Positions 51,900-58,005 of a stretch of 64,000 bases of DNA are shown here, one piece after another. A model generated the notes under the pieces. The model was given only the letters and a program-made list of their open reading frames with translations. It ran no database searches and was not told where the DNA came from. Both the position numbers and the translations under genes were made by a program. The DNA is from Kyrpidia sp. Its GTDB lineage: Bacteria; Bacillota; Bacilli; Kyrpidiales; Kyrpidiaceae. Within the stretch, counting starts at the first letter, position 1. Every line of letters starts with the position of its first letter. The stretch spans positions 1 through 64,000 of the forward strand of contig JASBVV010000001.1 in the NCBI GenBank assembly GCA_029960885.1, read 5' to 3'.

Positions 51900-51925
51900 T
51901 TTGTCGGGTGAAAGGAGGACGCCTC

Positions 51926-54712
51926 ATGGACTATAGCCACACCCTGCACTTGCCGAAGACCGATTTTCCAATGAAGGGAAATTTACCCAAACGCGAGCCG
52001 GAGATTCAGCGCCGGTGGGATGAGATCGGCTTGTATCGCCGGTCGGTGGAAATGCGGCGGGGGCGGCCGAAATTCATTCTCCACGACGGTCCCCCGTACG
52101 CCAACGGGAACATTCACGTGGGCCACGCCCTGAACAAGATTCTGAAAGATATCATTGTGAAGTTCAAGACCATGGACGGTTATGAAGCCCCGTATGTGCC
52201 GGGCTGGGACACCCACGGACTGCCCATTGAACATGCGATCATCAAGTCCGAAAAGTTGAATCGCCACGAGATCGATGTGCTGGGGTTCAGAGAGATGTGC
52301 CGGCAGTACGCCCTGGAGTACATTGATCGCCAGCGGCAGCAATTCAAGCGCCTGGGGGTGCGCGGGGATTGGGATCATCCGTACATGACCCTGGAACCCG
52401 CCTATGAAGCGGCACAGATCCGGGTGTTCGGGGAAATGGCGAAAAAGGGCTATATCTATAAGGGACTGAAGCCCGTCTATTGGTGTCCGTCTTGTGAAAC
52501 CGCCCTCGCCGAGGCGGAGATCGAGTATCGGGACAAGGTGTCCCCGAGCATTTACGTCAAATTTCCCGTCGTGGACGGGAAGGGCGTCGTCGAGCCGGAC
52601 GGTGCCTCGGTGGTGATCTGGACCACGACCCCGTGGACGCTGGTGGCCAACCAGGCGGTGGCCTTGGGCCCATCGTTGCGCTATGTGCTCGCCCAGGTCG
52701 GCGCCGAGCGGTGGGTGGTGGCCAAGGACCGGCTCGAAGATGTGTTGACAGCGGCGGGAGCCGGTCCGAATGCCGGACGGGTCTTGACCGAGTTTGAAGG
52801 GCGGGATTTCGAAGGCGGTCTGCTTCAGCACCCGTTTTACGCCGACCGGAGGGTGCCGGTGGTGTTGGGGGATCACGTCACCCTGGACGCCGGCACCGGA
52901 GCGGTGCACACCGCCCCGGGGCACGGCATGGAAGATTACGTGGTGGGACTGAAATATCACTTGCCCATCGTGGCGCCGGTGGATGACCGCGGGCGGTTCA
53001 CCGAGGAGGGACGGCCGGTGCAGGGTCAGTTTTACGCCAAGGCGAACGATGCGCTCTGCGATCTTCTGCGGCGGGAGGGGGCCATGGTGGCGGAAGGGCG
53101 GATCAGCCACCAGTACCCCCATTGTTGGCGATGCAAAAACCCGGTGATTTATCGGGCGACGGAGCAGTGGTTCGCGTCCATCGACCGGTTTCGCCGTGCG
53201 CTGCTCGATGAGATTGAACGGGTTCGGTGGATCCCCGCCTGGGGCCAACATCGGATTCACAACATGGTGGCCGAGCGCGAGGATTGGTGCATCTCCCGCC
53301 AGCGGGTGTGGGGCGTGCCCATCCCGGTTTTCTACTGCGAGTCGTGCGGGGAGACGGCGATCGACGATCGGACCATTGATCAGGTGGCGCGGCTGTTCGA
53401 GCAATACGGGTCCCAGGTGTGGTTTGCCCGGGAGGCGAAAGATCTGCTGCCGGAAGGATATCGCTGTCGTTGCGGAGGAGATCGATTCCGCAAGGAAACG
53501 GACATTATGGACGTCTGGTTCGATTCGGGATCCAGCCACATGGCGGTATTGGAGCAAAGGCCGGAGTTGCGGTGGCCGGCCGACATGTACCTCGAGGGAT
53601 CGGATCAGCACCGGGGATGGTTCAATTCATCCCTGTCGACGGCCGTCGCCGTCAAAGGCAGAGCCCCGTACCACGCCGTGCTCACCCACGGATTTCTCCT
53701 GGACGGCGAGGGCCGGAAGATGTCGAAGAGCTTGGGGAATGTGGTGGACCCCCTGGACGTCATGAACCGGCTCGGCGCGGACATTTTGCGACTGTGGGTC
53801 GCGTCGGTGGATTACCGTTCGGATGCCCGGGTGTCCGACGCGATTCTCAAACAGGTGGCGGAAGTCTATCGGAAGATCCGCAACACCTTCCGGTTCCTGC
53901 TCGGCAACCTCCATGATTTCGACCCGGCGGAGCACAGGGTTCCGTACGAGCGGATGGCCGAGTTGGATCGCTGGGCGCTGGATCAGTTGCAGCGGGTGGT
54001 GGAGCGGACCACGGCCGCCTATCGGAATTACGAATTTCACCTGGTGTTCCACGCTGTGCACAATTTTTGCGCCGTACAGATGAGCGCGTTTTATCTCGAT
54101 GTGCTTAAGGACCGGATGTACTGCAGCCGGTCGGACGACCCGCTCAGGCGGTCCGCCCAGACCGCGCTGTACGACATCTTGGTGACATTGGTCAGGTTGG
54201 TCGCTCCCATCATCAGCCACACCGCCGATGAGGTTTGGGGGTATATCCCGGGGGTGGACGGACCGAGCGCCCAACTGACCGATTGGCCGGCTGTGCAAGT
54301 CGAGTGGAAAGATGACGCCCTCATGCGCAAGTGGGACCTGGTCCTGGCTCTGCGCTACGAAGTGGCCAAAGGGCTGGAAGCGGCCCGGCAACAGAAGATC
54401 ATCGGCAACAGCTTGGGGGCGGCGGTGGAGCTCTGGCTTTTCCCTCCTTTTGAAGAGCTCCGACCCATGGCCGGCGATCTGCCGCAAATCCTGATTGTTT
54501 CCCAGGTCATGGTGCATGGGCCGGAAGAGGCGCCGCCCCCCGACGCCCTGCAGTTCGAGGGAGTGGCTGTAAAAGTGCACCCCGCTCCGGGGAACAAATG
54601 TGAACGGTGCTGGATGGTGCTGCCGGAGGTGGGCACCGTGGAGGGCCATCCGGATCTTTGTGTGCGGTGTGCCGGTGTGATCGGGGAAAAAAAACTTGAT
54701 GACCAATCCTGA
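51926..54712 (+). CDS. ileS: Isoleucyl-tRNA synthetase
   Basis: HDGPPYANGNIHVGHALNKILKD; KMSKSLGNVVDPLDV; C-terminal Zn motif CERCWMVLPEVG...CVRC. Confidence 0.97.
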   Translation: MDYSHTLHLPKTDFPMKGNLPKREPEIQRRWDEIGLYRRSVEMRRGRPKFILHDGPPYANGNIHVGHALNKILKDIIVKFKTMDGYEAPYVPGWDTHGLPIEHAIIKSEKLNRHEIDVLGFREMCRQYALEYIDRQRQQFKRLGVRGDWDHPYMTLEPAYEAAQIRVFGEMAKKGYIYKGLKPVYWCPSCETALAEAEIEYRDKVSPSIYVKFPVVDGKGVVEPDGASVVIWTTTPWTLVANQAVALGPSLRYVLAQVGAERWVVAKDRLEDVLTAAGAGPNAGRVLTEFEGRDFEGGLLQHPFYADRRVPVVLGDHVTLDAGTGAVHTAPGHGMEDYVVGLKYHLPIVAPVDDRGRFTEEGRPVQGQFYAKANDALCDLLRREGAMVAEGRISHQYPHCWRCKNPVIYRATEQWFASIDRFRRALLDEIERVRWIPAWGQHRIHNMVAEREDWCISRQRVWGVPIPVFYCESCGETAIDDRTIDQVARLFEQYGSQVWFAREAKDLLPEGYRCRCGGDRFRKETDIMDVWFDSGSSHMAVLEQRPELRWPADMYLEGSDQHRGWFNSSLSTAVAVKGRAPYHAVLTHGFLLDGEGRKMSKSLGNVVDPLDVMNRLGADILRLWVASVDYRSDARVSDAILKQVAEVYRKIRNTFRFLLGNLHDFDPAEHRVPYERMAELDRWALDQLQRVVERTTAAYRNYEFHLVFHAVHNFCAVQMSAFYLDVLKDRMYCSRSDDPLRRSAQTALYDILVTLVRLVAPIISHTADEVWGYIPGVDGPSAQLTDWPAVQVEWKDDALMRKWDLVLALRYEVAKGLEAARQQKIIGNSLGAAVELWLFPPFEELRPMAGDLPQILIVSQVMVHGPEEAPPPDALQFEGVAVKVHPAPGNKCERCWMVLPEVGTVEGHPDLCVRCAGVIGEKKLDDQS

Positions 54713-54724
54713 TCGTGTTACAAT
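54696..54724 (+). promoter_or_regulatory. sigma-A promoter TTGATG-17-TACAAT of the M-box/ABC operon
   Basis: -35 at 54696-54701, -10 at 54719-54724; overlaps the 3' end of ileS. Confidence 0.7.
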
Positions 54725-54753
54725 CGCGGTGTCAAAAAAGCAGATTTCACCAT

Positions 54754-54900
54754 CCTCGTTAGGTGAGGCGTGTGTACAAACACAGGCCACTGCCCCACCT
54801 TGAAGCAATGGGTAGACCAGGAATTGCCGGATTAAGGCTTTTCCTAAGGTGGCTGAGCGGTGCGGCTCTACGTTGTACACTGTCGAAGCTCGACTAGGGG
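54754..54900 (+). ncRNA. M-box-like (ykoK leader, Mg2+-sensing class) riboswitch
   Basis: CTCGTTAGGTGAGGC..ACAGGCCACTGCCC..GCAATGGGT..ATTAAGG..GGCTCTACG..TACACTGTCGAAGCTCGACTAG in the order seen in ykoK/mgtE leaders. Confidence 0.75.
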
Positions 54901-54925
54901 GACGGGTGTGCGGCCTGCGCATGGA

Positions 54926-54951
54926 TTCCCCCGGATGTCGGGGGTTTTTTT
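54926..54951 (+). terminator. Riboswitch-associated intrinsic terminator
   Basis: CCCCCG-GATGT-CGGGGG then T7; its 5' arm can alternatively pair with GGGGGA at 54897-54902. Confidence 0.85.
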
Positions 54952-54992: not shown

Positions 54993-56705
54993 ATGTCGGC
55001 GTACGGACAGGCCAGGCAAAAGCCGGGTTGGTGGGTGGATGTCGCGCTGTTGGCCGGAGTTCTCGGACTCTTTTATGGCATCGTTGAAGTGGGCAGAGGA
55101 ATGGTGGAACCGTATGCACCCCAGTCGTCCATGACCGTCTCCCTGGACCCGGCCGTGTTGCCCTATTACGCCGGACGAAGTCTGGTACGGATGTTCTTGG
55201 CCCTGGGGGCTTCCCTGGTGTTCACCGTCCTCTATGCCCGGTTGGCCTCCCGCAGTCGGATGGGGGAACGGATTCTGATCCCGCTCCTCGATATTCTGCA
55301 GTCGGTGCCGGTGCTCGGATTTCTTTCGGTGACGGTGGTCGGGTTCATGGCGCTGTTTCCTGGGAGTTTGCTCGGTCCGGAGTTGGCGTCGATCTTCGCG
55401 ATCTTCACCGGTCAAGTGTGGAACATGACCTTCGGATTCTACCAGTCGATCACCGGAGTGCCCAAGGAACTGCGGGAAGCGAGCCGGTTGTACGGCCTCG
55501 GCGGGATCCGGCGGTTTTTTCTTTTGGATTTCGCGTATGGGGCGGTGCCCTTGGTGTGGAACAGCATGATGTCTTTTGGCGGCGGATGGTTTTTTCTGGC
55601 CGTCAGCGAATCGATCACCGTCCTTCACCGGGATATCCGTTTACCGGGCATCGGTTCTTATATGGCGGCGGCGATGGATCAGGGCAACGTGCGCGCCATG
55701 CTCTACGCCATGGTGGCCATGGTCATCGTCATCGTTGTGGTGGATCAGTTGTTCTGGAGGCCGTTGGTGGCCTGGGTCCAGCGGTTCAAAGTGGAACAGA
55801 CGGCGGGCCTGGATTTGCCGACGTCGTGGATGTTGACGCTTCTGCGCCGTTCCCATGCGGCCGAATGGGCGCGCAAAGCCGTTTTTCAACCGTTCTGGGC
55901 TTGGATGATCGCTGGCCGCCCCCGTTCCCGCCCCCGTCCGTCCCCGGCTCCCGGGGTGAAAAAAGGCGTATCCGCCGCGATCTGGGTGATGGTGATCGGC
56001 GTGATCGGCTACTGGATCCTCCGGGGCGGATTGATGGTGGCGGAATTGGGATGGAAAGAATTGCTCGCGCCCATCGGCTACGGGTGTTTGACCTTGATCC
56101 GGGTGGGTGCGGCAGTGCTGATCGGCGCTCTGTGGACGGTTCCCGTGGGGGTGTGGATCGGGACCCACCCGAAATGGTCCCGGGTGGCCCAACCCGTGGT
56201 GCTCATCGCGGCGTCGTTTCCGGCCAACATGTTCTTCCCGCTGATCACGGCGGCGTTTTTATCGCTGCACATCAGCCTGCAGTGGGGATCGATTGTCCTG
56301 ATGATGCTGGGAACCCAGTGGTACATTTTGTTCAACGTGATCGCCGGGGCTTCGGCCATTCCGGGTGACCTCCGTGAGGCCAGCGACCTGATGCGGCTCC
56401 GAGGCTGGCGGCGGTGGCGTCTGCTCATTCTCCCGGTGATTTTTCCTTCGCTGACCACCGGGCTCGTCACGGCGGCGGGAGGCGCATGGAACGCCAGCAT
56501 CGTTGCGGAAATGGTTTCCTGGCAAGGCACCGAACTCGCGGCCACCGGGCTCGGGGCTTATATTACCCGGGCCACCACCGATGGAGACTGGCCGGCCATC
56601 GTCTGGGGCATCATCGTGATGGCGGCGTTTGTCGTGGCCGTCAACCGCCTGGTGTGGCGGCGAATGTACCGGTTGGCGGAAAGTCGATACAGGTTAGAGG
56701 TGTGA
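54993..56705 (+). CDS. Fused dual-domain ABC permease (BPD/NitT-TauT-like)
   Basis: Two permease domains, each with an EAA-like loop (GVPKELREASRLYGLGGIRRF and AIPGDLREASDLMRLRGWRRWRLLILP). Confidence 0.88.
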   Translation: MSAYGQARQKPGWWVDVALLAGVLGLFYGIVEVGRGMVEPYAPQSSMTVSLDPAVLPYYAGRSLVRMFLALGASLVFTVLYARLASRSRMGERILIPLLDILQSVPVLGFLSVTVVGFMALFPGSLLGPELASIFAIFTGQVWNMTFGFYQSITGVPKELREASRLYGLGGIRRFFLLDFAYGAVPLVWNSMMSFGGGWFFLAVSESITVLHRDIRLPGIGSYMAAAMDQGNVRAMLYAMVAMVIVIVVVDQLFWRPLVAWVQRFKVEQTAGLDLPTSWMLTLLRRSHAAEWARKAVFQPFWAWMIAGRPRSRPRPSPAPGVKKGVSAAIWVMVIGVIGYWILRGGLMVAELGWKELLAPIGYGCLTLIRVGAAVLIGALWTVPVGVWIGTHPKWSRVAQPVVLIAASFPANMFFPLITAAFLSLHISLQWGSIVLMMLGTQWYILFNVIAGASAIPGDLREASDLMRLRGWRRWRLLILPVIFPSLTTGLVTAAGGAWNASIVAEMVSWQGTELAATGLGAYITRATTDGDWPAIVWGIIVMAAFVVAVNRLVWRRMYRLAESRYRLEV

Positions 56706-56718
56706 GGGGGGAACGGCC

Positions 56719-58005
56719 GTGTCTCTCTTGGAATTGCGCCACGTGTCCAAAGACTGGGAAGTGGGGCCGGGGACGGAGACCACCATCCTCAAAGATGTTT
56801 CGCTAAAAGTGGAAGAAGGGGACTTCGTCGCTCTCCTCGGCCCTTCCGGATCGGGAAAATCGACCCTTTTACGGATTATCGCCGGACTCATCCCGCCAAC
56901 CGAGGGACAGGTGCTCTACCACGGTCGCCCGGTGGACGGCGTCGCGCCGGGGGTGGCGATGATCTTCCAAAATTTCGCCCTGTTCCCTTGGTTGACGGTG
57001 TTGGAAAATGTTGAACTCGGTCTGGAGCGCCAGGATCTGCCGGCGGCGGAAAAGCGGAAAAGGGCGCTGCAGGTCATCGACATGGTGGGACTCGACGGGT
57101 TTGAAACGGCGTTTCCCAAAGAACTGTCCGGAGGCATGCGCCAGCGGGTGGGGTTCGGCCGCGCCCTGGTGGCGGAACCGGATGTGCTTCTGATGGACGA
57201 GCCGTTTTCCGCTTTGGACGTCCTGACGGCGGAAAACCTGCGGCGCGACCTGCTGGAGTTGTGGCTGGAGAAGAAGATTCGCACCAAGGCCATCATTCTG
57301 GTGACCCACAGCATTGAAGAGGCGGTGTACCTGGCCAATCGGGTCGTGGTGCTGTCCCGGGACCCGGCCCGGGTGGTGACCGACGTGCGGATCACCCTGC
57401 CGCACTGGCGGGATAAACAGTCGCCGGCCTTTCTTTCGTTGGTCGATCAGCTTTACGCCATTATCACCCGGCGCACACCTGCGGTGGAAGCCGCGCCGAG
57501 CTCGGGGCGGCCGGTCACCCGGGTGCCGGAAGTCCGGTCCGGTGCGCTCACCGGGCTGTTGGAACTGTTGGATGATCTGGAGATCCGGGTGGATCTGTAT
57601 AAATTGGCCGACAATCTCATGCTGGACGTGGAAGATTTTTTGCCCATCGTGGAAGGGGCGGAGTTGCTCGGCCTGGTTAAAGTGGAACACGGCGACATCG
57701 AGCTCACCGATATCGGCCGGCAGTTCGCCGATGCCAGCGTATTGGAGAGAAAAGAAATTTTTCGGGATCTGGTGTTAAAAAAAGTTCCAACCATGGAAAA
57801 AATGTTATGGGTGCTTCAATCGAAACGCAACAAGCAGATCGCCAAGGAGTTTTTTCTGCAGATTTTTGAACGGAGATTCAGCCCGGAAGAGGCGTCGAAA
57901 CAACTGGATATCCTCATTGACTGGGGACGGTATGCGGAACTGTTCGGCTATGATGAGCAGGGGGGGCGCCTCTACCTCGAAGGGGAAGACGAAGCGGCCC
58001 GGTGA
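56719..58005 (+). CDS. ABC ATPase with C-terminal AAA-associated domain (AAA_assoc_C)
   Basis: LLGPSGSGKSTLLRIIAGL; LSGGMRQRVGFGRALVAEPDVLLMDEP; C-terminal about 140-aa helical domain DDLEIRVDLYKLADNLMLDVEDFLPIVEGAELLGLV. Confidence 0.9.
   Translation: MSLLELRHVSKDWEVGPGTETTILKDVSLKVEEGDFVALLGPSGSGKSTLLRIIAGLIPPTEGQVLYHGRPVDGVAPGVAMIFQNFALFPWLTVLENVELGLERQDLPAAEKRKRALQVIDMVGLDGFETAFPKELSGGMRQRVGFGRALVAEPDVLLMDEPFSALDVLTAENLRRDLLELWLEKKIRTKAIILVTHSIEEAVYLANRVVVLSRDPARVVTDVRITLPHWRDKQSPAFLSLVDQLYAIITRRTPAVEAAPSSGRPVTRVPEVRSGALTGLLELLDDLEIRVDLYKLADNLMLDVEDFLPIVEGAELLGLVKVEHGDIELTDIGRQFADASVLERKEIFRDLVLKKVPTMEKMLWVLQSKRNKQIAKEFFLQIFERRFSPEEASKQLDILIDWGRYAELFGYDEQGGRLYLEGEDEAAR

Follow-up and report, generated by a model that had tools for sequence, protein, structure and literature searches.

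An M-box riboswitch ahead of a fused dual-permease ABC transporter in Kyrpidia and other bacteria: a candidate Mg2+ importer

Introduction

In the window, the whole 64-kb stretch of Kyrpidia DNA analysed here, a genuine M-box precedes an operon for a fused dual permease and an ABC ATPase, and the same arrangement is found in many other bacteria, either beside known Mg2+ transporters or in place of them; for this reason Mg2+ import is the most likely role of the pair. Judged from sequence, the operon probably encodes a Mg2+-repressed, ATP-driven Mg2+ importer that would work without a linked binding protein. The initial annotation, which had predicted a divalent-cation role and named Mg2+ before Mn2+, therefore still offers the best reading, and neither an anionic substrate nor a binding protein turned up. 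We know of no ABC importer of Mg2+, and a literature search for one gave no more than passing mentions, in four papers. A published list of Mg2+ uptake systems likewise includes no ABC transporter (PMC8806188).

The system had also been proposed as undescribed, which is true in part. In Candidatus Liberibacter asiaticus, CLIBASIA_02415/02420 was reported as an Nrt/Ssu/Tau-like “possible novel ABC system,” with neither a substrate nor a riboswitch assigned; by architecture it resembles the window pair, both having a permease with two transmembrane domains, an ATPase with PF09821 and no binding protein (PMC3688454). In Bifidobacterium breve, an M-box was described in the 5′ UTR of the ABC operon Bbr_0406-07, which includes a COG4986 permease, and a role in metal homeostasis was suggested; by its description this is the same M-box/ABC arrangement, given as a single case without comparative analysis (PMC5746004). 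From its fused architecture and the B. breve description, the permease of the window would also belong to COG4986 (duplicated permease). The architecture and one M-box/COG4986 pair were already known; the cross-phylum association with the M-box and the genomic case for Mg2+ are the new elements. A precedent for the reasoning is NrmT, an NRAMP-related protein under M-box control that was proved to be a Mg2+ transporter: it belongs to an unrelated protein family and its function was tested, but the logic, an M-box before an unexpected transporter family, is the same, so the inference of a Mg2+ substrate from an M-box has succeeded once (PMC4072509).

If the reading is correct, the operon would represent a further class of bacterial Mg2+ importers, the first known to us among ABC transporters, and many proteins labelled as nitrate, sulfonate or bicarbonate transporters would be misnamed. 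It would explain how members of the window's genus, in which CorA, MgtE, MgtA and NrmT are missing, acquire Mg2+, and would pose a problem of mechanism: by what means a type I importer fold, unaided by a binding protein, could take up a small hydrated cation. There may also be a bearing on Liberibacter crescens, in which B488_11500, the orthologue of the Ca. L. asiaticus permease, is listed in the essential gene set (PMC4837290).

The Leader and Its Predicted Switch

The leader and the two genes are made up of the following features:

54696–54724, + strand: putative SigA-type promoter, TTGATG-17-TACAAT (pattern match and position relative to the M-box)
54748–54907, + strand: M-box (Mg2+-I) riboswitch aptamer, full length (RF00380, score 114.1 bits, gathering threshold 44, E 1e-24)
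54896–54932, + strand: predicted antiterminator, AGGGGGA (54896–54902) with TTCCCCC (54926–54932) (constrained folding)
54928–54951, + strand: intrinsic terminator, the hairpin CCCCCGGATGTCGGGGG with seven T behind it (sequence and folding)
54993–56705, + strand: dual permease of 570 aa with two fused BPD_transp_1 halves (Pfam); ATG at 54993, stop at 56703–56705
56719–58005, + strand: ABC ATPase, 428 aa, ABC_tran and C-terminal AAA_assoc_C (Pfam); GTG at 56719, stop at 58003–58005

The leader, initially called M-box-like, is a genuine M-box by its RF00380 score. It is the sole Rfam match in the window and the single M-box found in the genome from which the window comes (2.04 Mb, 86% complete). 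The span first given for the system, 54993–58005, was exact for the two genes but omitted the leader at 54696–54951. The promoter-like motif overlaps the end of ileS (51908–54712), which lies directly upstream and gave no T-box match in Rfam at the gathering score.

The AGGGGGA segment is the 3′ strand of the aptamer helix P1, and the fold that combines aptamer and terminator has an energy of –90.4 kcal/mol, against –85.2 kcal/mol when the antiterminator is forced. As far as the sequence tells, this layout is that of a Mg2+-off transcriptional switch, to which a Mg2+ response of the window's copy would correspond. With adequate Mg2+ in the cell the M-box would fold, its P1 helix would hold AGGGGGA, the terminator would form and transcription would stop; upon a drop in Mg2+, AGGGGGA would instead pair with the 5′ arm of the terminator and the operon would be transcribed. 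The P4 arm of the aptamer measures 26 nt in the window, 8 nt less than in the sister genome, which has 34 nt like most others (30 and 59 nt in loci L030 and L031, respectively), with an overall score still well above the cut-off. A standard P4 arm is common in M-boxes and not strictly defining, its length varying among accepted members; owing to the shortened arm, however, activity of this exact copy is not to be assumed.

The Permease and the ATPase

The proposed dual-permease polypeptide and ATPase with a C-terminal AAA-associated domain were both confirmed by Pfam, the latter domain (PF09821) spanning residues 294–412 with 138.7 bits, and only BPD_transp_1 and ABC/AAA-type domains occur in the pair. 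No match was obtained with PF01544, PF01769, TIGR01524 or PF01566, the models of CorA, MgtE, MgtA and NrmT, respectively. The BPD_transp_1 permease and the ABC_tran ATPase of NitT/TauT importers are both present, and in this respect the sequence family fits an ordinary anion importer of the nitrate/sulfonate/taurine type, whose binding protein would be encoded elsewhere and whose M-box would have been captured by chance. Such an explanation is hardly credible, because none of the named nitrate, sulfonate or taurine models reaches its cut-off with the pair (score and cut-off: ntrB, 57.9 and 209.05; ntrCD, 192.6 and 291.8; taurine ATPase, 210.4 and 357), because no conserved binding protein lies nearby, and because the M-box recurs in several lineages with a negligible expectation by chance.

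Importers of this permease fold usually depend on a binding protein. The initial annotation saw none near the operon, and this holds more widely: no substrate-binding protein is conserved beside the pair in 80 named loci, none is annotated near it in 20 plasmid loci, and a crude pattern for lipoprotein-like ORFs found none in the window.

The AlphaFold model of the permease (pLDDT 87, pTM 0.86) consists of two similar halves, and that of the ATPase also has a pLDDT of 87. Foldseek returned FbpB as the best full-length match of the permease, and CmpB and NrtB rank next as matches to single halves; for the ATPase, NrtD/CmpD were matched, and all matches were to nucleotide-binding domains, with none for the C-terminal domain. 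Among solved relatives, CmpBCD and NrtBCD, bicarbonate and nitrate importers that work with a partner binding protein, come nearest to the permease halves and to the ATPase. Unlike the window pair, they have separate permease subunits and an anionic substrate, and they are not known under an M-box. FbpBC of Thermus thermophilus (9j4r) also has two permease halves in one chain and a metal substrate, but it is an Fe3+ system, and its resemblance to the permease of the window amounts to 16% identity and a TM-score of 0.51. The two fused halves would form one pathway, driven presumably by two copies of the ATPase, through which Mg2+ most likely, or less likely another divalent cation, would be imported without a linked binding protein.

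The M-Box Upstream of the Permease Across Lineages

Among 100 relatives, 41 M-boxes were found, and the genes behind them were classed by BLAST clustering and by reading representatives. Counting the first gene downstream, MgtE follows 10 of them, an MgtA-type ATPase 8, CorA 7, an NRAMP-related gene 6, the permease 7 (window included) and another gene 3, so that 31 of the 41 precede the MgtE, MgtA-type, CorA or NRAMP-related families. The NRAMP-related genes are in loci L003, L004, L005, L006, L007 and L009, and all four of their proteins that were examined (L003, L004, L005 and L007) carry the DNDAGG motif of the NrmT type.

The survey for RF00380 upstream of homologous operons, proposed in the initial annotation, found the M-box in several lineages of Bacillota and in Actinomycetota. 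In a class sample of 396 genomes the permease has 18 carriers, half of which (9/18) have an M-box upstream; a phylum sample of 299 genomes added 17 carriers, with an M-box in 12 of the 16 that are testable, the remaining locus lying at a contig edge. It is also present in 16 of the 80 named loci, all of them in Bacillota (Alicyclobacillaceae, Paenibacillaceae, Bacillaceae, Sporolactobacillus, Sporomusaceae and Lucifera), and in each of these 16 a terminator-like hairpin follows. Two plasmids extend the list: one of Enterococcus gilvus, with an M-box upstream of the permease, and one of Tsukamurella (Actinomycetota), in which the M-box is followed by an mgtC-permease-ATPase operon. When Rfam's own model was run on nine of the loci (Enterococcus, Tsukamurella and seven others), every one of them scored above the cut-off, and the association is therefore independent of the M-box model built for this analysis. 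By a rough binomial estimate, chance placement of the M-box upstream of the permease is negligible, and on the permease tree the M-box label requires 6 changes, against a mean of 21 after shuffling.

The M-box might instead mark a low-Mg2+ response in which the operon moves a solute other than a divalent cation, needed when Mg2+ is scarce, for example for the envelope or for balancing nucleotides. M-boxes do control non-transport genes too, one of them preceding a gene of the FtsW/RodA type; mgtC, which is often adjacent to the operon, is to our knowledge not thought to encode a transporter; and the permease halves have their closest solved relatives in carriers of nitrate and bicarbonate. We nevertheless consider such a solute unlikely, given the predominance of Mg2+ transporter families behind the M-boxes of the relatives and the existence of congeners that have the operon and lack the usual Mg2+ importers.

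Several observations concern riboswitches at other positions. The FtsW/RodA-type cell-wall gene is in genome G065 (L037:4926-6056, – strand; PF01098, 280 bits), and its M-box suggests Mg2+ control of cell-wall synthesis. The M-box of a Mycolicibacterium plasmid (L190:378-549, – strand) faces away from the ABC pair, toward a hypothetical gene. No M-box was found at the Alicyclobacillus-type and f47 relatives of the permease. Control of the M-box-less relatives by other riboswitches was considered and rejected, since Rfam gave S-boxes on the opposite strand at the Alicyclobacillus loci and unrelated elements elsewhere; these S-box (SAM) riboswitches lie upstream of the Alicyclobacillus-type permease in L059, L060, L067, L069, L074 and L088.

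Other Mg2+ Transporters in Carrier Genomes

CorA is encoded in 329 and MgtE in 223 of the 396 class genomes, whereas among the 18 carriers CorA occurs in 7 and a partial MgtE in 1. Both are missing from 11 of the 18 carriers, which come from three families, and from 16 of the 378 non-carriers (Fisher p 4e-10, a value that ignores shared ancestry). Two genomes from the genus of the window, both 99% complete, gave no CorA, MgtE or MgtA above the cut-off; each has a single NRAMP, which carries the Mn/Fe-transporter motifs DPGN and MPHV. Among the 17 further carriers of the phylum sample, MgtE was found in 2, bringing it to 3 of the 35 carriers of both samples, and CorA in 14. The replacement of CorA as a general rule was consequently dropped: with CorA so frequent in the phylum carriers, replacement of all other importers is confined to some lineages. 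On balance, we lean towards regarding these operons as widespread Mg2+ importers of the ABC superfamily that work without a substrate-binding protein and that, in some Bacillota, would replace CorA and MgtE as the main uptake route.

The C-Terminal Domain of the ATPase

In the AlphaFold model, residues 274–420 of the ATPase show an order of helices and strands that looks like two winged helices; a winged-helix fold was also assigned by HHsearch to the C-terminal domain of the Liberibacter homologue (PMC3688454). The initial annotation regarded this domain as a possible regulatory sensor. An essential sensor is ruled out by ten M-box-controlled loci (L175–L183 and L191), nine in the Bacillota families f71 and f147 and one in Enterococcus, whose ATPases of 249–259 aa have no AAA_assoc_C. 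The permeases of these loci are more distant, with 31–39% identity over nearly the full length, three of them being aligned only partially. As M-box-controlled relatives do without it in two Bacillota families and in Enterococcus, AAA_assoc_C is optional and not essential to the core function, and what stands of the earlier suggestion is that the winged-helix domain may serve as an optional regulator.

Neighbouring Genes

Genes related to Mg2+ also occur next to the pair at loci where no M-box was found. MgtC adjoins the pair or lies one gene further in Cupriavidus, Aureimonas and two Azospirillum records, and is close by in an Anaerolineae locus. In Rhizobacter, a true MgtA (1173 bits) is found 87 nt downstream of the pair, and CorA lies about 100 nt downstream in a member of the Burkholderiales. 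In one Paenibacillus, CorA is just upstream of the M-box.

Genes for VIT (PF01988) and for cation diffusion facilitators are adjacent in Paraburkholderia, Burkholderia and Azospirillum, and hint at other divalent metals. A divalent-cation importer whose main substrate is not Mg2+ but Mn2+, Fe2+ or another metal would agree with these neighbours and with FbpB, a fused dual-permease ferric importer, as the best full-length fold match. It is nonetheless very unlikely, since the M-box senses Mg2+ in vivo and pointed to the correct substrate in the case of NrmT (PMC4072509), and since the congeners already have a canonical NRAMP of the Mn/Fe type.

In Gram-negative bacteria, an OprB-type porin is encoded upstream of the permease in L103, L104, L122, L199 and L194, at a distance of 10 nt or less in three of them, and is a possible outer-membrane partner of the pair. 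Near the pair in unrelated bacteria, kdpB or kdpC of a K+ transporter is found (L078:1190-3223 and L147:3238-3822), and a stretch of P-type ATPase near L139 may be another K+ transporter gene.
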